From an uncultured Verrucomicrobiota bacterium (lineage in GTDB: Bacteria > Verrucomicrobiota > Verrucomicrobiia > Limisphaerales > UBA9464), in assembly GCA_903907995.1 (NCBI GenBank), contig CAIVQH010000023.1, forward strand, positions 1-64,000: DNA of 64,000 nt. The letters run 5' to 3'. Positions 37,906 to 62,692 of the stretch are shown here, piece after piece (the stretch's first letter is position 1; every line of letters starts with the position of its first letter). Below the pieces are notes generated by a model. That model worked only from the letters and a program-made list of their open reading frames with translations, did no database searches and had not been told where the DNA came from. The translations under genes and the position numbers were made by a program.

Positions 37906-39813
<1,908 letters not shown>

Positions 39814-52604: not shown

Positions 52605-53678
52605 ATGCGAACTTTTCCATCCCCCGTCCGCGTCGCCATCATCGGAGCCTCCGGCTATTCCGGCGAGGAGCTCGTGCGCCTGCTGCTCGGCCATCCGCAC
52701 GCCGAGCTCGTGGCCGTGACCTCGCGCCAGTATGCGGGGCAGACGGTCGCCCAGATCTTCCCCAAGTTCGCCAGCCATCCCAAGGCGCGCGCCCTGCGCT
52801 TCAGCGACCCCAACGTGGGCGTCCTCGCCACCCAAGCGGATGTCGTCTTTTTGGCCCTGCCCCACGGTGTGGCGGCGGAGTTTGCCGTGCCGCTGCTGGC
52901 AGCCGGCTGCACCGTGATCGACCTGAGCGCGGATTTCCGCCTGCGGAGCGCTGCCGTCTATCAGGAGTTTTACGCCCACGAGCATCCTGCGCCGGACCTA
53001 CTCGCCAAGGCCGTGTACGGATTGCCCGAGGTGTATCGCGCGCAAATCCGCGAGTCGCAACTCATCGCCTCGCCCGGCTGCTATCCCACGAGCATCCTGC
53101 TGCCCGTAGTGCCGCTCCTGCGCGCCGGCCTGATCAAGCCCACGGGCATCATCGCCGACTCGATGAGCGGCGTGAGCGGTGCGGGCCGGAAGGCAGAGCT
53201 GGACTATCTTTTCTGCGAATGCAACGAGAGCGTCCGCGCCTACGGCCTTCCGAAGCACCGGCACCTGTCCGAGATCGAGCAGGAACTCAGCCTCGCGGCG
53301 GGCGAAGCGGTCACGCTCCAGTTCACGCCGCATCTCATCCCGGTGAATCGGGGCATCCACACCACGCTCTATCTCGCCCCGGCCAAGCATTTCTCCAGCG
53401 CCGAAGAGGCCGCCGAGCTGAACGCGCAGATTGCCGCCTGCTATCGCGCCGCCTACGCCGACGAACCCTTCGTGCGCGTGCTCGAGGGCAAGGCGCTGCC
53501 AGACACCAAGAACATCACCGGCACCAACACCCTTGAACTCGCTTGGCGGCTCGACGTGCGCACCGGCCGCCTGCTCGTGCTCAGCGCCGAGGACAACATC
53601 GTCAAAGGCGCGAGCGGCCAGGCCGTGCAGAGCCTGAACATTCTCTGCGGCTGGGCGGAAACCTCCGGTCTGCTCTGA
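52605..53678 (+). CDS. argC: N-acetyl-gamma-glutamyl-phosphate reductase
   Basis: Predicted 357-residue enzyme of arginine synthesis that reduces N-acetylglutamyl phosphate with NADPH. NADP-binding IIGASGYSGEELVRLL at the front, VFLALPHG, the catalytic Cys in LIASPGCYPTS, and SGVSGAGRKA and HLIPVNRGIHTT further on. Length is typical. No other arg genes are in the window. Confidence 0.95.
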   Translation: MRTFPSPVRVAIIGASGYSGEELVRLLLGHPHAELVAVTSRQYAGQTVAQIFPKFASHPKARALRFSDPNVGVLATQADVVFLALPHGVAAEFAVPLLAAGCTVIDLSADFRLRSAAVYQEFYAHEHPAPDLLAKAVYGLPEVYRAQIRESQLIASPGCYPTSILLPVVPLLRAGLIKPTGIIADSMSGVSGAGRKAELDYLFCECNESVRAYGLPKHRHLSEIEQELSLAAGEAVTLQFTPHLIPVNRGIHTTLYLAPAKHFSSAEEAAELNAQIAACYRAAYADEPFVRVLEGKALPDTKNITGTNTLELAWRLDVRTGRLLVLSAEDNIVKGASGQAVQSLNILCGWAETSGLL

Positions 53679-53714
53679 GCCTGCGACGGCCCGCCGTCGC
53701 CGTGGCCAAGGCAG

Positions 53715-54893
53715 TCAGGATTTGCCGGCGTGGTCGCCGTACTCCCAATCGTAGGGTACGCCGGTGTCACCTAAGATGAATCGCACCAGCTCGGCAAAAC
53801 CGGCCTCGGAGCGGACGTCATTTGACAGGATGACGACGCAGCGCTGACCAGCCATCAGGCAGACCATGGTATTGGCCGTCTTGCCGTCGTGGCCGCCCTT
53901 GTAGATGCCATGGCCCTGCGGTCCGTCGAAGGCGATCGCGCCCAGGCTGGCATACAGATCCTTGCGCTGCTTCGCCACCGGCACGTCCTCCTGGAAGTTG
54001 GGAAACTGATGGGCGATGCCGAGGTGCAACTGCGGTTTCGCCAGCTCGGCGCGGGCGGCTGTGCTCAGGCCATCGCCGCGCACCAGGCCGGCGGCGAATT
54101 TTGCAAAGTCGGCAATCGTGGTGTTCATCGAGCCGGCCGCCCGCACCTTTTTGCGCTGGTCATGTTCCTCGGGCTCGCCCTTGTCGTTCCAGCCGTCGGC
54201 GACGTTGGCATTGGTGCCATTCAGCCAAGTCAGGCTGGTCCGCGTCATGCCCAGCCGGTCGAAATTGGCCCTGGTCAGCTCGCCGACATCGAGTCCCAGG
54301 CCCTGCGTCTTGCGTCCGTGTTCGATCACGAACTGCAGCAGGATGAAGCCTTCGCCCGAATAACTGAAGCGGGTGCCCGGATCGAAGTGGAGGCGCAGCT
54401 TCTGGTCGGGTTCGATGAACCAGAAGTTGTGCATGCCAGTCGAATGGGTCAGGCACATGCGCGGCGTGATCTTCTCCCAGCGCGGGTCGTCGGCCAGGTG
54501 CTTGTAGGGTCCGTATTTATCAGGGAAGACGGGATCGGGACCGTACGTCGGCAACGGCTGGTCGAGATCCTCCTTGAGGGGCGTTTCGAGGCTGAGTCTG
54601 CCCTGATCGACGAGTTGCAAAACGGTGTAGGCAAAGACGGTCTTGGTCAGCGACGCGCCGTACATGACGGTGTTGGTGGTGAGCGGGTCGCCCTTGGCGT
54701 TCCGGATGCCATAGGCCTGGACATAGCCAACTTGGCCCTGGTCGATGACCGCCACAGCCATGCCGTTGGCGTGAGTACGGGTCATGATCTGGCGCACCTT
54801 GGTGTCGATGGCCGCGCCGTTCGGTATGGGCTGGGCGACCGATCTCAGGGAAAGACCGAGCGTGAACAGGATCAGATAAACGGTACGCCTCAT
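53715..54893 (-). CDS. Secreted class C beta-lactamase-like serine hydrolase
   Basis: Predicted 392-residue exported penicillin-binding-protein-fold hydrolase. The chosen ATG opens a signal peptide (MRRTVYLILFTLGLSLRSVAQ); an upstream start would add 23 residues. The catalytic SxxK is SLTK in VMYGASLTKTVFAYTVLQL, the second motif is YSGEG, and KGGHDGK near the end takes the place of the KTG box. CLTHSTGMHNF is the usual LLTHTSGL element. Such proteins are esterases, D-aminopeptidases or transpeptidases; resistance is not implied. Confidence 0.88.
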   Translation of the reverse strand: MRRTVYLILFTLGLSLRSVAQPIPNGAAIDTKVRQIMTRTHANGMAVAVIDQGQVGYVQAYGIRNAKGDPLTTNTVMYGASLTKTVFAYTVLQLVDQGRLSLETPLKEDLDQPLPTYGPDPVFPDKYGPYKHLADDPRWEKITPRMCLTHSTGMHNFWFIEPDQKLRLHFDPGTRFSYSGEGFILLQFVIEHGRKTQGLGLDVGELTRANFDRLGMTRTSLTWLNGTNANVADGWNDKGEPEEHDQRKKVRAAGSMNTTIADFAKFAAGLVRGDGLSTAARAELAKPQLHLGIAHQFPNFQEDVPVAKQRKDLYASLGAIAFDGPQGHGIYKGGHDGKTANTMVCLMAGQRCVVILSNDVRSEAGFAELVRFILGDTGVPYDWEYGDHAGKS

Positions 54894-55078
54894 GAATCGA
54901 TGGCAACGTGTGGATTTCCCCGATCTCAAACAACCCAAAACGGCCGGCCAAAGCCCCACCAAGGCTGCGCCTTGGCTTCGTTAGGAGGTTCACCTCCGCG
55001 GATCGCCGGAATCTCCGACGCCTGTCCGGTGGTCGAATGCCGGGGCAGCCACCCGTACAAATGTGCGCCCGCTCGCCC

Positions 55079-57676
55079 TCATTTTCCGGAGCGCTCCTGC
55101 AAAACCACGCCCAGCGGACCGGACCGGACCTCAAAGTGCAGGGTCTGTTCGTCGCGCTGTATTTCCAGGTCCACGGCCCCCTCCTTGCCTGCTGCCATCC
55201 GCTGTAGCAGCGCATCCCTTCCCGTAACTTCCTGGCCGTCGTAGCGGCGGATGCGGTCACCGGCTTTCAGGCCCCGCTTCGCGGCCTGACCGCCCGGGAT
55301 GATTTCGGAGATGATGACAACCGCCGAGCCTGCGAGGGCGCCGGCTTTCGTCGCGAGGTTCACACCCTGGGCGTCGAAGTATTCGGCGCGGACCGGCTGA
55401 CCGGTGGCGGGATCATATTGTATGGTGGCCCGGGCCCAGCGACCCACTGCCACCGGCCGGTCAGCCGCGTCGAAATAGGCGGTCTCCGTCACATTGCCAC
55501 GGGCGTCATAGCGGATGGCCGTGCGAGCCCACCCCTTCGGATCGGCCACGGGCTGGCCATCTTTGCCGAAAGTGGCGAGCTCCACGATGTTCCCGCGGTC
55601 GTCGTAGCGGATGGTTCCACGCACCCGGCCATCAGCAGTGCGCACGGGCTCGCCCTTCACCCCGAAGTAGGCCGTCTCAATCGGGCGGTTCCGGTCGTCG
55701 TAGCGGACTCTCAGGATCGAATACCCGGTCTTGAGCAGCACGGGTTGCTGGTCCGGTCCGAAACAGGCCGTCTCGATCTGGTTCCCGCGCGCGTCCCAGC
55801 GATACGTCGTCCGCGCCATGCCGGTGTTGGCGCACACGGGTTCGTCGCGCGCGCCAAAATACGAAATCTCGACCGGGTTGTCCTGGGCGTCGAAGCGCTG
55901 GGTCACCCTCGCATAGCCCTGCCGGTTCAGCGTCGGCAGCCCGTCCACCCCGTAATAGGACTGCTCATTGGCGTTTCCGCGCGTGTCGTAGCCGGTGACG
56001 ATGCGGGCGATGCCCTCCCGGTTCCGCGTGGGCAGGCCGTCCACCCCGAAACAGGCCCACTCGACCAGGCTGCCCTCTTCATTGCGCCGGCTGCGGAGAC
56101 TCGCGTAGCCTCCTTGGCCCAATACAGGCTCGTCGTTAATGCCGAAGAAGGCCAACCCGACCTCGTTATGCCGGCTGTCCAGACGGAACTGGCACCGGGC
56201 GATCCGGTCCAGCACCAGCACTGGTTTTCCGTCCGGGCCGAAAAAGGCCTCCTCCAGCAGGTTCCCCTGCGTATCGACGCGGCGCGTAACGCGGGCGTAT
56301 CCTTGCCGGTTCGACACCGGTCGGTTGGTCAGGCCAAAGTTGGCCAGCTCCACCTGGTTGCCGTGCGCATCGTAGCGGGCGGCGCTGCGGGCGATGCCAT
56401 CCCGGGTCAACACGGGGCCGCCATCCAGACCAAAGTAGGCCAGCTCCGTCTGGTTGCCCTGTACGTCATAGTGGGCGGTCCAACGGGCAAAGCCGTTGGT
56501 ATTGAGCACGGGGCGACGGGTGAGCCCGAAGAACGCCTCTTCCAACTGATGCCCGTGGGCATCGTATCGGGAAACGATTCGCGCCACGCCGTTCGGGAGC
56601 ACCACCGGCTGATGGTCCGGCCCAAAAAAAGCCCACTCGACCAGATTTCCGTGGCCATCCCGCACCATCTCGCTGCGGGCATGGCCATCCCTCTGCCAGA
56701 CCGGACCGCCGTCCAGGCCAAGGCTGTCCTGACTGACGGTGTTGCCATACCGGTCGCGCACCGTGCGGGTTTCGGCGTAGCCTCCCGGCACCAGGACCGG
56801 GGCGCCTTGGGCGTCGATGAACCGGCTCCGGATGACGAAGCCCCGGGCATCCCGTTCCAGACGGACCGAAACGACGCCGCACCGGTTGGGCACCGGCTTC
56901 CCGTCGAATCCGAGATTGGTAATTTCCAGAGGCCGCCCCCGCTCATCGTAGCGAAAGGCCTGGCCATACCCACCATCCACCCCGGCACACGGCACATGGT
57001 ACGCATTGAAGTAGGTCAGCTCCCGGCACAGGCCGTCCGGCTGGTAAACCACCCGGTGCGCCGTGATCGGGCTCCTCACCTCGCCGAGCAGATGCGGTTC
57101 ATGGGACGGGGGAAGCGTATCAAAGAGCCCGCCCAAACTGCTCTGGACCGGCGGTGTTCGTTGGGAGCCTGGCTGAAACTCGACCATCACCACGCGGCCT
57201 TCGGGCAAATCCTGGGCCACGCCATACTCCTGGTGGAGCACCCGGCGGCCGGCATGATCCTGCAGGTCGATGGCGGCCAGCGAGCCATCCGCCCGATAGG
57301 TGAGCTCCCGGAGCGCACCATGATAGCCATAGGGGGAGTCCGCGAGATCACCGGTGGCATTGACCGTGATGATGTGAATCACCCGGTTCTGGCGGCGCTC
57401 CACCTGGTAGCTCAGCTCACGATGACGCGCCTCTTCGGCCGTGAGGGGGATGATCCCCTCAGGCACACTGAAGCGGTCGGTCAGCTCGGCGAAAAAGGCC
57501 ACCGCCGCAGCAGGGTCAGGCTGCCTGTTTTCCAGGCCGGTCACGAACAGCAACAGGGGCAGCAGAAGCACCCCGGGAATCAAACGTCGCAGCCTCCACC
57601 GCCCGTGAGTCTTTAAGGCAGTGGCGGTCATGCCGGCTAACGGGACCGAAAATTCCTCGGAGTGCTCAGGGTTCAT
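55079..57676 (-). CDS. YD-like repeat protein with C-terminal PDZ domain
   Basis: Predicted 865-residue membrane-anchored or exported protein. The ATG at 57676 is preferred; another is at 57631. A hydrophobic segment (LIPGVLLLPLLLFVTGL, about 31-47) leads into the outside part. From about residue 300 there are 17 tandem repeats of about 32 residues with the pattern E.A.FG.DG.PV....G.AR....YDA.GN, related to RHS/YD repeats. The C-terminal 85 residues are a PDZ domain (SEIIPGGQAAKRGLKAGDRI). This is an unusual pairing; a surface binding protein that presents a peptide-binding module is plausible. Divergent from the MEDS gene. Confidence 0.8.
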   Translation of the reverse strand: MNPEHSEEFSVPLAGMTATALKTHGRWRLRRLIPGVLLLPLLLFVTGLENRQPDPAAAVAFFAELTDRFSVPEGIIPLTAEEARHRELSYQVERRQNRVIHIITVNATGDLADSPYGYHGALRELTYRADGSLAAIDLQDHAGRRVLHQEYGVAQDLPEGRVVMVEFQPGSQRTPPVQSSLGGLFDTLPPSHEPHLLGEVRSPITAHRVVYQPDGLCRELTYFNAYHVPCAGVDGGYGQAFRYDERGRPLEITNLGFDGKPVPNRCGVVSVRLERDARGFVIRSRFIDAQGAPVLVPGGYAETRTVRDRYGNTVSQDSLGLDGGPVWQRDGHARSEMVRDGHGNLVEWAFFGPDHQPVVLPNGVARIVSRYDAHGHQLEEAFFGLTRRPVLNTNGFARWTAHYDVQGNQTELAYFGLDGGPVLTRDGIARSAARYDAHGNQVELANFGLTNRPVSNRQGYARVTRRVDTQGNLLEEAFFGPDGKPVLVLDRIARCQFRLDSRHNEVGLAFFGINDEPVLGQGGYASLRSRRNEEGSLVEWACFGVDGLPTRNREGIARIVTGYDTRGNANEQSYYGVDGLPTLNRQGYARVTQRFDAQDNPVEISYFGARDEPVCANTGMARTTYRWDARGNQIETACFGPDQQPVLLKTGYSILRVRYDDRNRPIETAYFGVKGEPVRTADGRVRGTIRYDDRGNIVELATFGKDGQPVADPKGWARTAIRYDARGNVTETAYFDAADRPVAVGRWARATIQYDPATGQPVRAEYFDAQGVNLATKAGALAGSAVVIISEIIPGGQAAKRGLKAGDRIRRYDGQEVTGRDALLQRMAAGKEGAVDLEIQRDEQTLHFEVRSGPLGVVLQERSGK

Positions 57677-58001
57677 CAAGGGGAAGCGTTGCCGAAGCGG
57701 GAGAAGCAGGCCGCGACCTCCCGAATGGAATGCCGAACGGTGCGTTGATTTCAAGGGACGGCTGGAATTTCCCGGCCAGTTTCCGCCAAGACCACCGAGT
57801 GTCCGGTAGCGCCAGCCTGCCTTTGGGCCTGGCATATGCCACCGGGCAAACCGGGCGCGGCACCGGCCAGGGCGACCGGAACCGTTCCAATTCCAGCCGA
57901 AAGCCGCAGGCGCCAGGTGGCGTGTGGCGGGAAATGGGGGTTGAGATTCTTGCCAGATTTGTAAAATTTTTGAAAAGGCTGATTGCCAGCGCACTTTGAT
58001 C
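57677..58001. other. 325-bp divergent gap
   Basis: GC-rich, with no credible gene. TTGAGA (57941) and TAAAAT (57962) are only 15 bp apart and form a weak candidate promoter for the rightward MEDS gene. The gap length depends on the start chosen for the leftward repeat protein. Confidence 0.4.
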
Positions 58002-58628
58002 ATGTATAGCAAATCAAACGGAAAAGTACCGCACACGGGAAGTGATTCGCGTCATCAATGCCTCATCTATGAGGGTTCCCCCTCGAAGCAGCTCCCGGCA
58101 TTGGCGGCCATGATCAGGCAGAAGCTGGCGGAGGGGCACCGCTGTCTCTACCTCAACAGCCGGCCCATGGTGGCGGGAATGCGCTCCTATCTGGCCGCGC
58201 TGGGCTGCGATGTGGAAAGCGAGCTGGCCGAAGGGCGCCTAGTTTTGTCCTCGGAACCGGTCACTTCCGCCAATGGTGATTTTGATGTGGAAATGATGCT
58301 GAACCAGCTCAGCCAGGCAGTGGATCGGGCGCTGAAAGATGGATATAGGGGCCTCTGGGCCACCGGGGACATGACCTGGGAGTTCGGCAACGAAAAGAAC
58401 TTTCTCAAGCTCATGCAATACGAATATCGGCTGGATGCCCTGATGGTGAAACGCCCGGAACTCTCGGGCATCTGCCAGTATCATCAGGATACGCTCCCGC
58501 CTGAGGCCATCCGGCAGGCCCGGCTGACGCATCCATCCCTCTTCATCACCGAGACGCTGTCACGCATCAACCCCGACTACATCCTGCGCGTGCTGTCGGA
58601 TGAGCCAAAGGCACGAATTGCCGCCTGA
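58002..58628 (+). CDS. MEDS-domain sensory protein
   Basis: Predicted 208-residue protein with the DcmR-type MEDS domain (a RecA/KaiC-like sensory fold): HQCLIYEGSPSKQ at the front, HRCLYLNSRP, GRLVLSSEPVTSANGDFDVE, GYRGLWATGDMTWEF and CQYHQDTLPP. Such domains usually sit in front of histidine kinases or regulators and sense small molecules. Here the domain stands alone without kinase or DNA-binding parts, so it may act in trans. The ATG at 58002 is preferred over TTG at 57996. Confidence 0.85.
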   Translation: MYSKSNGKVPHTGSDSRHQCLIYEGSPSKQLPALAAMIRQKLAEGHRCLYLNSRPMVAGMRSYLAALGCDVESELAEGRLVLSSEPVTSANGDFDVEMMLNQLSQAVDRALKDGYRGLWATGDMTWEFGNEKNFLKLMQYEYRLDALMVKRPELSGICQYHQDTLPPEAIRQARLTHPSLFITETLSRINPDYILRVLSDEPKARIAA

Positions 58629-58663
58629 AGGCACATCGCGGCCCCCGCTTCCTCAGCCTTGTT

Positions 58664-61600
58664 CTACTTCTCAATGAGGTAATAAAACGTGCCCGCCGCG
58701 AGCGTGAGGTTGTCGGCGGTCTGGGTCGGCGTCGCGTCGCGGTAGCCGTTCGCATCGAGAGCGGTAACACGTAGTGAGGCGGCATCGGACCGAGTAAGTG
58801 ACACTTTGCCCGCGAGGTTCCGGACCATGATCGGCGCATTACCGGCACTGGTGATGGTGCGGACGCCGGTGGCGGCATCGGTCGTCCAACCGAAGGGCTT
58901 TTCCTCGCTCATGGCCTGCACCAGCAGCTTGGCCGAGGTCGCGATGGGCTGCCCATCCAGCGAAATGACCAGGATGCTCCCGTACTCAACCGGCGATTCG
59001 ATGGTCACATCGGGCAGGTGAGTACTGCCGGCCGCGGTGAGAAAGCCGGTGAGGCCCTGCGCGGCGGGAGCCATGAGCTTCACCACGCCGTTGCTCCAGT
59101 TCCATTCCAGCTCACCGGTCTGGCTCTTTGCGATCTTCGTCGTGCGATTGATGAAGGGTGAGAGATCGGTGACTTCCGAGCGCGGCGAACCATTGGTCAG
59201 GATATCCACGCCGACGCGGCCGACGAGAAAGGCGAGCGAGTCGATGGCGCTGACATTGGTAAGCGTCGCGCCGGGCGGGATGTCGTTGCCGCGCAGCTGG
59301 TCGAAGTTCTGTGGCGCGGGCAGCGGCGTGCCTTTCAGCGCGTAGAGATCGGAGACCACAAGCTGCACGTTCACGATGCGCGGCGCCGTCTTCACGAGGC
59401 CCTGCCGGTAGATGAGCGCGGCGGCGGGGAACTGGCCCTCCACGACCGGCGTCTGCACCGAGAACTTGCTGGGCACGCTTTCCCATGCCGGTGACCCGGC
59501 GGCGAAGTGGAAGATGGCGTCGCTGCCTTGCAGCGAGCCGTAAGCGGCGGCGAGCACGGGATAGTCGGCGCGGAAACGGTTCGGCGGCGGCCAGTTCACT
59601 TCGGTGATCGTCGAGGGCTGCCCGTCATAGATGATGTCGAAGAGCGGGTTGTTGAAATCCTCCCCCACGCCGTTGTCCTTCAGAAACTTAAGCGCCGTCC
59701 GGTCGTCGTACTGCTGTCCGGCCTGGATGGCATAGCCCGAGGCATCGCCGGTGTGCACCCCGCCGAAATAGCCGTGGCGATCCATGAAGTCGGCGTCGGC
59801 ATTGGAGAGCTTGTCGAGGGGTCCGAGGTACTGCGGGCTCGCAGTCTGCCAGTTGGAGGCATAGACGAGTCCTCGGAAGCCGAGCGTCTTTTTCAGGTAG
59901 GCGTAGTGGTCACGGTAAAATTTCTGCTGGGTCTCGGTAAGGAACTGCGCGGTGTCCTGGTCGCGCTTCTGACGTTCGGTGAAGACCTGGTAAAGTCCGC
60001 GAAAGCCAACCCGGCCAGCAGCGAAGTTGTCCTGCGCTGACGTCGTGCCGCCCCAAGCCGTGCGGATCTGGTCGAGCGTTTTGCCGGGGTACTTCTTCAG
60101 CAGCCAATCGCCGAACTGCTTTTCTAGGATGGCCCGTTGCGGATCAGGAATTGCACCGGTATTTCCCGCGTCAGGATTGAAGGTCCAGAAGAGGAACGAA
60201 TCCTCGTTCACCAGTTCGGCCATCGCCACCGCTGGATCATCCTTCAGCGCAAGCCCGGTGTAGGGGTTTACGGTGTTCATCACGTAATCCCACCAGGTTC
60301 GGTAGAGTGCCTGAAACTTCGGGTTGAAATAGAGGAGCGCGAAGGGGTTCTTGCCGGTGTAGCCGGGGAAATCCGTGTTCACCGCGTCGAGCTTCACCCA
60401 GAGCGGGAAGTAGATGCTCAGGCAGGTGTAGATGCCCTCGCGCTTCAGGGCCGCGATGAGGTAGTGCAGCTTGGCAACATGGTTCGTGTCCACCTGACCG
60501 AAGTTTGCGCCGCTGCCGGCGTACACGGGACCGTGGATGCGCACGAGGTTCACGCCGCGCTTGGCCAGCGAGCGCGCAAAGAGGTCCACCTCGGTCTTCG
60601 ACAGGTCAGCGGTCGCGCCGCCCGTATTGACCGCCCAGAACTTCACCGGTTCGCCCGTCTTGGAATGGATGAACTCCTCGCCGCGCGCCGCGATGGAGCC
60701 GCCGTCACCAGCCGTCTTCTCGTTCAACCGGCGCAGATCGATCGGACTGAAGTCAAACGGATCGGCCTCCGGCTGAAAGGAGGTCCAGCCCGTCTCGTCG
60801 GCCACGAGTTTGTCGTCGGGCTTCAGCTTGCCGCGCGGGGTGAAGGTCTCGCGCGTGAGCAAAAAGCAGTCGTAGGCCGTGGTGCTGCTGGCATCGGTGA
60901 CTTCGAGGCGAAAGACCTTCGAGCCTGCTGTGAGCGTGACGGTGCCGGCGTTAATCCAACCCACCTTGCGACCCGGGCCAAGGTCCACCAGATCCTGCAA
61001 CGGCGGATTGGCGGTGTCTTTCCAGGCATCCGTGGTGCCGACGCGCCAGTGAAAGGTTTGCCCGTTCCAGAACTTCCGCACCCAGAGCGTGTAAGTCCCG
61101 TCGGCGGGAATCGTGATGGTCTTCTGGATCGAGCCGGCGGGAGCGACCCATGACATCTGGCCGCCCGAAAGCAACGCGTTGGCCTCGCCATTGGGCGGCT
61201 CGGCCTCGAACCAGACGTAGCCCTTGGACACGGGCCTCGCCGGAGCCAGTCCGGCGCTCAGCTGCGCAAAGAGCCGGGGCTCACCGGGGCTCACAGACAG
61301 GCTGGCTTCGTGCCGGGTGGAGCCAGCTGCCGGCGCGGCGTCCGTTTCCGTGAGATGCTGGCCGTCCGCCACGTGCCAGCCACCCGCGCCTGGATCTCGG
61401 CTCCAAATCAGCAGCAGCTCCGCCTCGCGGGCGGCATTGGCGGAATCGAAACCGAAGGCGAGGTGGTCGCCCGTGACGTCCGATTGGTAACGCAGTCCCG
61501 TCAAACCGCCGGCATCGGCCCGGGTCGGGTCAAGGCCCAGCGCGTATTCCAGAAAGTTCGGCAGGCCGTCGCCATCGGGGTCCGCCACCGGGTCGGCCAT

Positions 61601-61741
61601 GGGCAAAGTGGCGCGATCCGCACCCCAGACCTGGGCCTTCCAATCGGCATAGGTGCCGGACGGTGCCGCCAGGGCATGAGCGGCGTATTGGGACGCCACG
61701 AGTATGACGGAAGCAGCCAGTGCAACGGAACGGCAGAGCAT
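58664..61741 (-). CDS. Large secreted glycoside-hydrolase-like protein
   Basis: Predicted 1025-residue exported protein with a signal peptide (MLCRSVALAASVILVASQYAAHALA). A DPDGDGLPNFLEYALGLDP calcium-binding repeat follows, then a carbohydrate-binding-like sandwich (YTLWVRKFWNG). A clan-A type (beta/alpha)8 domain comes next, with FWAVNTGG, RGVNLVRIHGPV, AMAELVNEDSFLFW (acid/base Glu) and TITEVNWP (candidate nucleophile). C-terminal beta domains end TFYYLIEK. It probably hydrolyses a beta-linked polysaccharide outside the cell; the exact family is uncertain. An upstream in-frame start would run into a 30-bp inverted repeat. Confidence 0.8.
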   Translation of the reverse strand: MLCRSVALAASVILVASQYAAHALAAPSGTYADWKAQVWGADRATLPMADPVADPDGDGLPNFLEYALGLDPTRADAGGLTGLRYQSDVTGDHLAFGFDSANAAREAELLLIWSRDPGAGGWHVADGQHLTETDAAPAAGSTRHEASLSVSPGEPRLFAQLSAGLAPARPVSKGYVWFEAEPPNGEANALLSGGQMSWVAPAGSIQKTITIPADGTYTLWVRKFWNGQTFHWRVGTTDAWKDTANPPLQDLVDLGPGRKVGWINAGTVTLTAGSKVFRLEVTDASSTTAYDCFLLTRETFTPRGKLKPDDKLVADETGWTSFQPEADPFDFSPIDLRRLNEKTAGDGGSIAARGEEFIHSKTGEPVKFWAVNTGGATADLSKTEVDLFARSLAKRGVNLVRIHGPVYAGSGANFGQVDTNHVAKLHYLIAALKREGIYTCLSIYFPLWVKLDAVNTDFPGYTGKNPFALLYFNPKFQALYRTWWDYVMNTVNPYTGLALKDDPAVAMAELVNEDSFLFWTFNPDAGNTGAIPDPQRAILEKQFGDWLLKKYPGKTLDQIRTAWGGTTSAQDNFAAGRVGFRGLYQVFTERQKRDQDTAQFLTETQQKFYRDHYAYLKKTLGFRGLVYASNWQTASPQYLGPLDKLSNADADFMDRHGYFGGVHTGDASGYAIQAGQQYDDRTALKFLKDNGVGEDFNNPLFDIIYDGQPSTITEVNWPPPNRFRADYPVLAAAYGSLQGSDAIFHFAAGSPAWESVPSKFSVQTPVVEGQFPAAALIYRQGLVKTAPRIVNVQLVVSDLYALKGTPLPAPQNFDQLRGNDIPPGATLTNVSAIDSLAFLVGRVGVDILTNGSPRSEVTDLSPFINRTTKIAKSQTGELEWNWSNGVVKLMAPAAQGLTGFLTAAGSTHLPDVTIESPVEYGSILVISLDGQPIATSAKLLVQAMSEEKPFGWTTDAATGVRTITSAGNAPIMVRNLAGKVSLTRSDAASLRVTALDANGYRDATPTQTADNLTLAAGTFYYLIEK

Positions 61742-61808
61742 GGCCCAAGCATGGCAAGTTCCGGGCCAAGGGCCATTCCCGAAATGGCGGGCCGAATATG
61801 CCCACGGC

Positions 61809-61919
61809 CCGGACCGCGGGTCTGTGACCCGCAGCAACCCTCGTCAATAGGAAGGCGGCGAATGAAATCGAGCCAGAGTGCGAGTCGCAGTTGCTGCGGG
61901 TCACAGACCCGCGGTCCGG
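61809..61919. repeat. Perfect 30-bp inverted repeat
   Basis: Arms 61809-61838 and 61890-61919 are exact reverse complements (core GGACCGCGGGTCTGTGACCC, then GCAGCAAC) separated by 51 nt. It lies between rsmE and the glycosidase gene. The perfection over 30 bp suggests a recently inserted or actively maintained element. Confidence 0.85.
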
Positions 61920-61936
61920 TGGAGGGCCGGGGGCGC

Positions 61937-62692
61937 TCAGGCCAGTGATCGAGGTGCCGTCAGTTCGTAGTTCACCAGCGCCAGGCAATAGGTCGCCGCC
62001 GTCTCCACGCGCAAGACTAGGGGACCTAGTGTCATGGATTTCGCGCCGGCGGCCTTGAAGGCGGCGTATTCCGCCGGGGTGAAATCGCCTTCGGGACCTA
62101 CGATCACTCCCACAGAACGCGGCAGCCGCCCCTGTTCCGCTAAGAACCGCTCGAAATGGGCGCGGGGATGCTGTGGGGCATCCAACAGCGAGCCGATGAG
62201 CAGCAGGTCAAAGCGTTCCTGGCGCTTCAGCCAAGCCGCAGAGGTCTGAGGCGTCTCCACCTTGGTGAGCCAGACTGCGCCACACTGCTTCGCGGCTTCA
62301 GTCACGATGGTCTGCCATTTGTCGCGCTTGTCGTCGGCGTCGTCCGGCTGGCTGATGCTGCGCTCGGCCACCAGTGGCACAACGCGGGCGGCTCCGAGTT
62401 CGACGGATTTCTGCAGTAGCCCATCCATCGCCTTCGTCTTGGCGATGGCCTGGATGAGGGTGATTTCACCGGCGCGTGGCGGATGCTGGAGCCGCTCCCG
62501 CACCTGCACCGTCACGGCATTGCGGCTCACGGACTCGATCTGGCCGCGCAGCTCGCCCCCGGCACCATCCAACACGACGACCGGCTCTCCCGGCTGCACC
62601 CGCAGCACGCGCGCGGCATGATGCGCGTCGGAGTCCGACAGGATGACCACGTCGGTCTTCGTCCGCTCCGGGGGCAGGAAGAAACGGTGCAT
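61937..62692 (-). CDS. rsmE: 16S rRNA m3U1498 methyltransferase
   Basis: Predicted 251-residue SPOUT-class methyltransferase. HRFFLPPE at the N-terminus, HHAARVLRVQPGEPVVVLDG (PUA-like part), ITLIQAIAKTKAMDGLLQKSVELG and VGVIVGPEGDFTPAEYAA followed by LGPLVLRVETAA (knot) are diagnostic. It modifies U1498 in the decoding centre and often neighbours dnaJ, which is here 15 bp upstream in the same direction. Confidence 0.94.
   Translation of the reverse strand: MHRFFLPPERTKTDVVILSDSDAHHAARVLRVQPGEPVVVLDGAGGELRGQIESVSRNAVTVQVRERLQHPPRAGEITLIQAIAKTKAMDGLLQKSVELGAARVVPLVAERSISQPDDADDKRDKWQTIVTEAAKQCGAVWLTKVETPQTSAAWLKRQERFDLLLIGSLLDAPQHPRAHFERFLAEQGRLPRSVGVIVGPEGDFTPAEYAAFKAAGAKSMTLGPLVLRVETAATYCLALVNYELTAPRSLA

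Follow-up and report, generated by a model that had tools for sequence, protein, structure and literature searches.

The stretch of DNA analysed here, called the window, comprises positions 1 to 64,000 of contig CAIVQH010000023.1 from an uncultured bacterium of the Verrucomicrobiota (order Limisphaerales). It carries two divergent genes, one coding for a large protein built on YD-type repeats, hereafter the repeat protein, and the other for a stand-alone MEDS protein (Table 1). The sequence of the repeat protein reads as a short tail, a single hydrophobic segment, a juxtamembrane domain, a 17-unit array of the YD/RHS type and a C-terminal PDZ domain. The preliminary description of this locus had recognised the repeats, the PDZ domain and the MEDS domain, and these identifications are upheld by the searches reported below. 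It had also proposed that the array varies by recombination and that the MEDS protein acts together with the repeat protein, two proposals that fared less well.

Table 1. Features of the repeat gene and of its surroundings (positions in the window; aa, amino acids).
Feature	Position	Strand	Remarks
Repeat gene	55079..57676	-	865 aa, ATG start; start and length common to the sister species
Predicted membrane anchor (hydrophobic segment, aa 32-48)	57533..57583	-	17-residue hydropathy 2.44; follows a short Arg-rich tail
Juxtamembrane domain (aa 57-221)	57014..57508	-	common to TIR-bearing relatives; alignments A1 and A2
YD/RHS-type array	55382..57013	-	16 regular 32-aa units and 1 degenerate unit; RHS_repeat E 8.3e-7
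PDZ domain (aa 786-850), then a short conserved tail	55127..55321	-	Pfam PDZ_2 E 1.5e-7, above cut-off
Divergent intergenic region	57677..58001		88% identical to the sister species on the side of the repeat gene, 60% on the MEDS side
Stand-alone MEDS protein, divergent neighbour	58002..58628	+	208 aa; PF14417 E 6.6e-37
Serine hydrolase, beta-lactamase family PF00144	53715..54893	-	same strand as the repeat gene, 185 bp downstream of it

A longer frame of 985 residues, opened by a GTG at 58036, is disfavoured as the gene because the ATG at 57676 is shared with the sister species (genome G007), whose frame opens only 36 residues further up (901 residues), and because single-base indels separate the two species in the DNA upstream. 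In the own genome the repeat gene occurs once at full length; a further match to its product (E 4.6e-4) spans only 65 residues of the PDZ domain. Matches to PDZ-bearing proteases (HtrA, RseP, S41) are likewise confined to the PDZ domain, the protease domain being absent from the repeat protein. The Pfam scan detected no domain in the 31 residues ahead of the hydrophobic segment and no TIR domain in the protein.

In the array, 16 units of 32 residues follow one another in register (aa 222-733) and a degenerate seventeenth lies at about aa 734-765, in agreement with the seventeen repeats first counted. Residue identity at a lag of 32 is 0.375, to be compared with a maximum of 0.121 at any lag from 20 to 44 in 1000 shuffles, and the consensus of the unit is [YF]FG.DG.PV....G.AR....YD..GN..E.A. 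No DNA array was found between 52500 and 62000 by Tandem Repeats Finder; identity between units at the DNA level averages 49% with a maximum of 68%, and the longest exact run measures 16 bp. The units are therefore too diverged to recombine readily and the array is not a recombining one, contrary to the initial suggestion that the repeats are similar enough to vary by this route. Nothing in the comparison with the sister species suggests hypervariation, and the repeat number is identical in both, a constancy that rests on two species.

A structure was predicted with AlphaFold2 for six units (aa 350-541) aligned with the other units of the same protein and of its sister. The model, with two strands per unit, reached a predicted local distance difference test (pLDDT) score of 94.4 and a predicted template modelling (pTM) score of 0.83. 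When compared with the PDB by Foldseek, it best matched Rhs proteins of the type VI secretion system (T6SS), Tc toxin B-C complexes and teneurins, and after these the engineered single-layer sheets of OspA (best E 1.9e-6; query TM-score of at most 0.45 in the best 50 rows). VIA-align Z-scores rose to 9.2, yet reached 8.7-8.8 for small Bacteroides proteins, and a Z under 8 may correspond to a common arrangement. An RHS/teneurin-like strand ladder is supported by this prediction for six units, whereas a closed shell is not.

The only orthologue found is that of G007, which has 865 residues, no gap and 45 amino-acid differences (95% protein identity). Codon differences between the two genes are 92 synonymous and 45 nonsynonymous. 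The ratio of nonsynonymous to synonymous substitution rates (dN/dS) is 0.158 overall, 0.146 in the array and 0.233 in the juxtamembrane domain, and no replacement has occurred in aa 766-865, which hold the PDZ domain and the tail, at a dS of 0.20. The repeat gene is therefore maintained under purifying selection. It was found in 2 of the 50 genomes of the family, its own and G007. No match to the repeat protein was found on plasmids, and neither it nor the MEDS protein matched any family of known anti-phage systems in PADLOC-DB 2.0.0 at E 0.01.

Relatives of the repeat protein were searched for in 320 genomes of the order at E 1e-8, in a draw of 387 genomes of the phylum and in 374 genomes of the class at E 1e-15. 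The order yielded a sole further match, in genome G540, to a protein of 779 residues (L066) in which a TIR domain (PF13676, E 7.2e-13) precedes a hydrophobic segment, the same juxtamembrane domain and an array. A protein of 1342 residues in G245 also combines TIR, juxtamembrane domain and array. In the phylum, the juxtamembrane profile A2 matched 13 of the 387 genomes, mostly through repeat-like columns. In the class, a profile of four full-length proteins matched 50 of the 374 genomes, many through TIR columns only, and 15 stretches were fetched from 13 of these 50. Further TIR forms came from G878, G822 (TIR below cut-off, 20.3 vs 28 bits) and G847 (array recognised by reading only, with no RHS_repeat match). 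The G878 protein (L141, 1956 residues) runs from a TIR domain through a hydrophobic segment, the juxtamembrane domain and an array to a PDZ domain; this PDZ domain and the tail are 29% identical to those of the repeat protein over 96 residues (E 2e-10 in a two-sequence comparison). Other members carry an nSTAND1 domain with a YD array (L143-L146, from G808, G823, G789 and G854), and in G789 a protein of 2063 residues (L155 2695-8883) joins kinase, YD array, TPR and CHAT. Among 17 array proteins scanned with Pfam, the repeat protein included and the sister protein, L148, L154 and the proteins of loci L056-L065 left aside, five have TIR, four nSTAND1, one a kinase and two PDZ (the repeat protein and the G878 protein, the latter below cut-off). 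A PDZ cap is thus unusual for such proteins, and a toxin or shell domain was not detected here, as had been remarked at the outset.

The repeat protein can be aligned, over its juxtamembrane domain and array, with the TIR proteins of G540, G245, G878 and G822. A profile of the first 62 juxtamembrane residues, built from the TIR forms and the repeat protein and run against 24 targets, gave E-values of 5e-7 to 9e-5 for the four STAND proteins and a weak match for the kinase L155 (E 0.03), without a clear match to the short effector-less proteins L063-L065 (E 0.05-0.24). In the 50 residues that precede the juxtamembrane domain, the best 17-residue hydropathy lies between 1.44 and 2.64 in 12 of 12 proteins and is at least 1.6 in 10 of them. 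In a tree of 12 juxtamembrane sequences, the repeat protein and its sister group with the TIR forms, outside a STAND-plus-kinase group (99/96).

Several observations concern the TIR ends of these proteins and possible copies on mobile DNA. The TIR domains of three relatives, compared with the window by tblastn, matched only 18 residues at 38377-38430 with E 0.88, i.e. at chance level, and no remnant was seen near the gene. The sole TIR_2 match of the own genome lies outside the window, in a frame of 139 residues (G000:C23:82484-82747). In G540 (L066 75-4126), the TIR-YD gene is followed by genes for a protein resembling a cyclase, whose Pfam score falls just short of the cut-off, and for a WD40 protein with a TIR_2 match, possibly a cluster of TIR proteins. 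Nine plasmid records matched the G540 protein, all inside its first 203 residues, the TIR end. Its juxtamembrane-plus-array part gave one weak match on plasmids (E 3e-3) and one among phages (E 9e-3), and the juxtamembrane domain with the preceding segment gave no match on plasmids. In IMG/VR, 59 stretches matched a pattern and none was confirmed. Finally, L150-L153 are YD proteins that have a C-terminal region in common (MRVLNI...) and show no Pfam domain above cut-off.

Our preferred explanation, held with moderate confidence and drawn from sequence comparison, is that the repeat protein binds a ligand or serves as a scaffold in the periplasm and, within a family of receptors, represents the ectodomain half, the sensor part of a TIR-type receptor without its effector. 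The layout recurs in its relatives, which place ahead of the hydrophobic segment a TIR domain or, in more distant cases, a STAND NTPase or a kinase. The hydropathy, the Arg-rich tail and the position of the relatives' signalling domains, which would be cytoplasmic, suggest an N-in topology that would leave the array and the PDZ domain in the periplasm. The array may project there as a curved ladder of strands, with a ligand or partner bound along its surface, and the PDZ domain at its far end may hold a protein of the periplasm or outer membrane by its C-terminal peptide. Lacking a cytoplasmic effector, the window copy would act as a binding scaffold, a co-receptor or a decoy and not as a complete signalling receptor. 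Extended to all relatives, the same reasoning would describe a Toll-like family of membrane receptors in the Verrucomicrobiota, in which a periplasmic teneurin-like YD array stands on a shared juxtamembrane domain and is served by interchangeable TIR, STAND or kinase effectors, the repeat protein, capped by PDZ and without an effector, acting as a decoy or co-receptor by which this signalling is tuned or fed. In this full form the proposal is speculative and we consider it distinctly unlikely.

A number of points weigh against the receptor interpretation. The full-length model is poor (pLDDT 56.9) and was left out of the fold search, so that the overall shape and the placement of the PDZ domain are without a model. 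Evolution is fastest in the N-terminal tail and the anchor (dN/dS 0.377), and the predicted segment falls under the 1.6 hydropathy cut-off in the G245 TIR protein (1.59) and in the kinase (1.44). The juxtamembrane domain is rare: the N-terminal part of profile A2 was matched in only 2 of the 387 phylum genomes, the own genome and G245, both of which are rows of the profile. The only other PDZ-capped member found is the G878 protein, whose PDZ domain stays below the Pfam cut-off (21.0 vs 27 bits). YD proteins without an effector domain occur elsewhere in the Verrucomicrobiota. The 12-row tree gives the window pair no resolved sister, has no outgroup and is rooted at its midpoint only; it does not prove a loss of TIR by the repeat protein as opposed to a gain in its relatives.

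These last points nourish the main rival, a credible if unlikely alternative according to which the form without an effector is simply an adhesin or structural surface protein anchored in the membrane and was never a receptor, TIR, STAND and kinase domains having been added in other lineages. Effector-less YD proteins are found in several genomes of the phylum, and none of the five proteins L149-L153 has an N-terminal Pfam domain above cut-off. The order of events is left open by the juxtamembrane tree, and the carbohydrate binding proposed for RHS repeats, as cited in the part of PMC3482391 covered, also counts in its favour. The adhesin reading has to face the fact that all nine examined relatives with a supported juxtamembrane match carry a signalling domain, presumably cytoplasmic (five TIR, four STAND), a tenth, L055, being cut by the contig end before the effector position, and that the PDZ domain and tail are common to the repeat protein and a TIR protein, that of G878. 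A quite improbable variant of the receptor reading would see the gene as a remnant decaying after the loss of its TIR domain. The missing effector and the restriction to two genomes of the family fit such a decay, which is opposed by the intact frame of 865 residues in two species, the low dN/dS and the unreplaced C-terminal hundred residues; a pseudogene is disfavoured by this purifying selection. That the protein is a polymorphic toxin or a shell protein of the RHS type, as its RHS_repeat match and RHS-like fold could suggest, is hardly credible. The core of RHS toxins bears an autoprotease motif of the DPxGL type. In the repeat protein, the sole sequence of the DPxG type is a DPKGW inside unit 16. 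The C-terminus is a PDZ domain and no toxin, PAAR or VgrG domain was found in Pfam; the toxin reading is rejected.

The divergent MEDS gene offers another explanation, put forward in the preliminary description, in which the two proteins form a regulatory or sensing pair. The absence of an output domain noted there is borne out: the PF14417 match spans the entire 161-position model, no other Pfam family scored above cut-off, and no output domain such as HTH or kinase is fused or adjacent, the next gene lying on the other strand. In favour of a pair, both genes are found in exactly the same 2 of the 50 family genomes, in the same divergent order in G007, and the MEDS gene is also under purifying selection (dN/dS 0.174). 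This shared linkage is weak evidence of partnership because the two species are close and share other flanking genes too. In the phylum draw, the repeat protein matched 12 of the 387 genomes (E 1e-8) and the MEDS protein 8 (E 1e-5), and both were present only in the window's own genome, which itself has a single MEDS match. When nine genomes bearing the repeats, of which seven also belonged to the phylum draw, were searched for MEDS, it was found in G007, linked, and in G540, where it sits on an 87-kb contig and the repeat gene on a separate contig of 6.8 kb. The G540 MEDS protein is 22% identical to that of the window, which itself found no match at E 1e-3 in 15 of the loci fetched from relatives that have YD-array genes, the sixteenth locus, L108, being the G540 MEDS locus itself. 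The search for such pairs in other genomes, recommended at the start, thus recovered one linked case in the sister species and none beyond it. In the intergenic region, moreover, conservation is lower on the MEDS side than on the side of the repeat gene. A functional pair is therefore improbable, and the MEDS gene is probably a lineage-specific neighbour and not a regulator of the repeat gene. Within this sampling, an absence of linkage beyond two sister species goes together with a constant repeat number, the combination that the preliminary description had named as speaking against its own proposal. As a separate observation, the stand-alone MEDS genes of G540 (L108 8886-12817) and G099 (L067 4809-7405) abut or overlap a long downstream open reading frame (ORF) resembling by eye a hybrid histidine kinase, 1059 residues long in G540.

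The repeats and fold of the repeat protein place it with the RHS/YD proteins (PF05593), a group that includes the T6SS Rhs effectors, the B-C shells of Tc toxins and the teneurins. It shares with them the two-strand units with a YD..G motif, and its six-unit model is closest to them in the PDB. It differs from them by its strict 32-residue period, its predicted membrane anchor, its PDZ cap and the lack of a Pfam toxin or PAAR domain, and the toxin feature of the RHS family is not found in it. With the TIR-juxtamembrane-YD proteins (L066, L054, L141, L142 and L147) it has in common the hydrophobic segment, the juxtamembrane domain and the array, as well as the PDZ domain and tail in L141, and it differs from them by the absence of TIR. 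The nSTAND1-YD proteins and the kinase-YD-TPR-CHAT protein have the same kind of array behind another cytoplasmic domain, with a juxtamembrane match in the four STAND proteins. Animal Toll-like receptors are built as an ectodomain, a membrane helix and a TIR domain. The TIR-bearing relatives may follow the same working principle, in a reversed order from N- to C-terminus and with an ectodomain of unrelated origin; TIR is absent altogether from the window copy. As for the neighbouring gene, a full-length MEDS domain is also present, according to the part of PMC11784639 covered, in a histidine kinase of Methanosarcina acetivorans, from which the window MEDS protein differs by the lack of a fused or adjacent output domain.

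Discussion of bacterial TIR and STAND proteins has centred mostly on their role in sensing phages inside the cell. Among conflict systems, the covered parts of two papers report C-type-lectin sensors on STAND proteins, of which some have TIR effectors (PMC10907252), and systems with TPR or beta-propeller repeats and, in one GTPase system, PDZ domains beyond a membrane segment (PMC7159879); the term 'RHS' does not occur in the main text of either. The polymorphic-toxin survey PMC3482391 treats RHS repeats in toxins and teneurins; in its covered part STAND appears in two passages, both on Amoebophilus effectors, and 'PDZ' is absent. No TIR-YD or STAND-YD array and no PDZ-capped YD array was encountered in the literature searched, which lay outside subscription journals and preprints and included parts of PMC6653060 and PMC12419801 (in these two, one of the two search terms occurs only in the title of a reference). 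What is new here is the family itself, i.e. the association of a TIR or STAND domain, or in one more weakly related protein a kinase, with a hydrophobic segment, a YD array and juxtamembrane domains related to one another. If the receptor reading is correct, bacteria would gain an outward-looking receptor that uses the same signalling domains on a large ectodomain of the RHS/teneurin type, and RHS/YD repeats a role other than in toxins. The effector-less, PDZ-capped form would then offer a handle, as this ectodomain could be produced with no cytoplasmic effector attached and used in ligand screens.

The genes around the pair are of lesser bearing. The order of the serine hydrolase gene and its spacing to the repeat gene are kept in the sister species, and it is a possible operon partner of the latter; no sigma-70-like promoter was found between 53500 and 62000. 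On the other side, 58664-61765 codes for a protein of 1033 residues with a weak match to GH5 mannanases (E 6e-5) and no Pfam family above cut-off. All four genes (repeat, MEDS, serine hydrolase and GH5-like) are shared by G007. The stretch that holds them, 53678-61937, is flanked by genes which we take, from their sequence and without a family search, to be argC and rsmE. In G006 no rsmE was found within the 15 kb fetched, and the contigs of G008 and G009 are short there. The spot between the argC-like and rsmE-like genes is variable in gene content, since it holds the four genes in the window and in G007, none of them in G005, where the flanking genes are about 250 bp apart, and in G010 and G004 a different ORF of 585-589 residues that reads like a flavin adenine dinucleotide (FAD) oxidoreductase.

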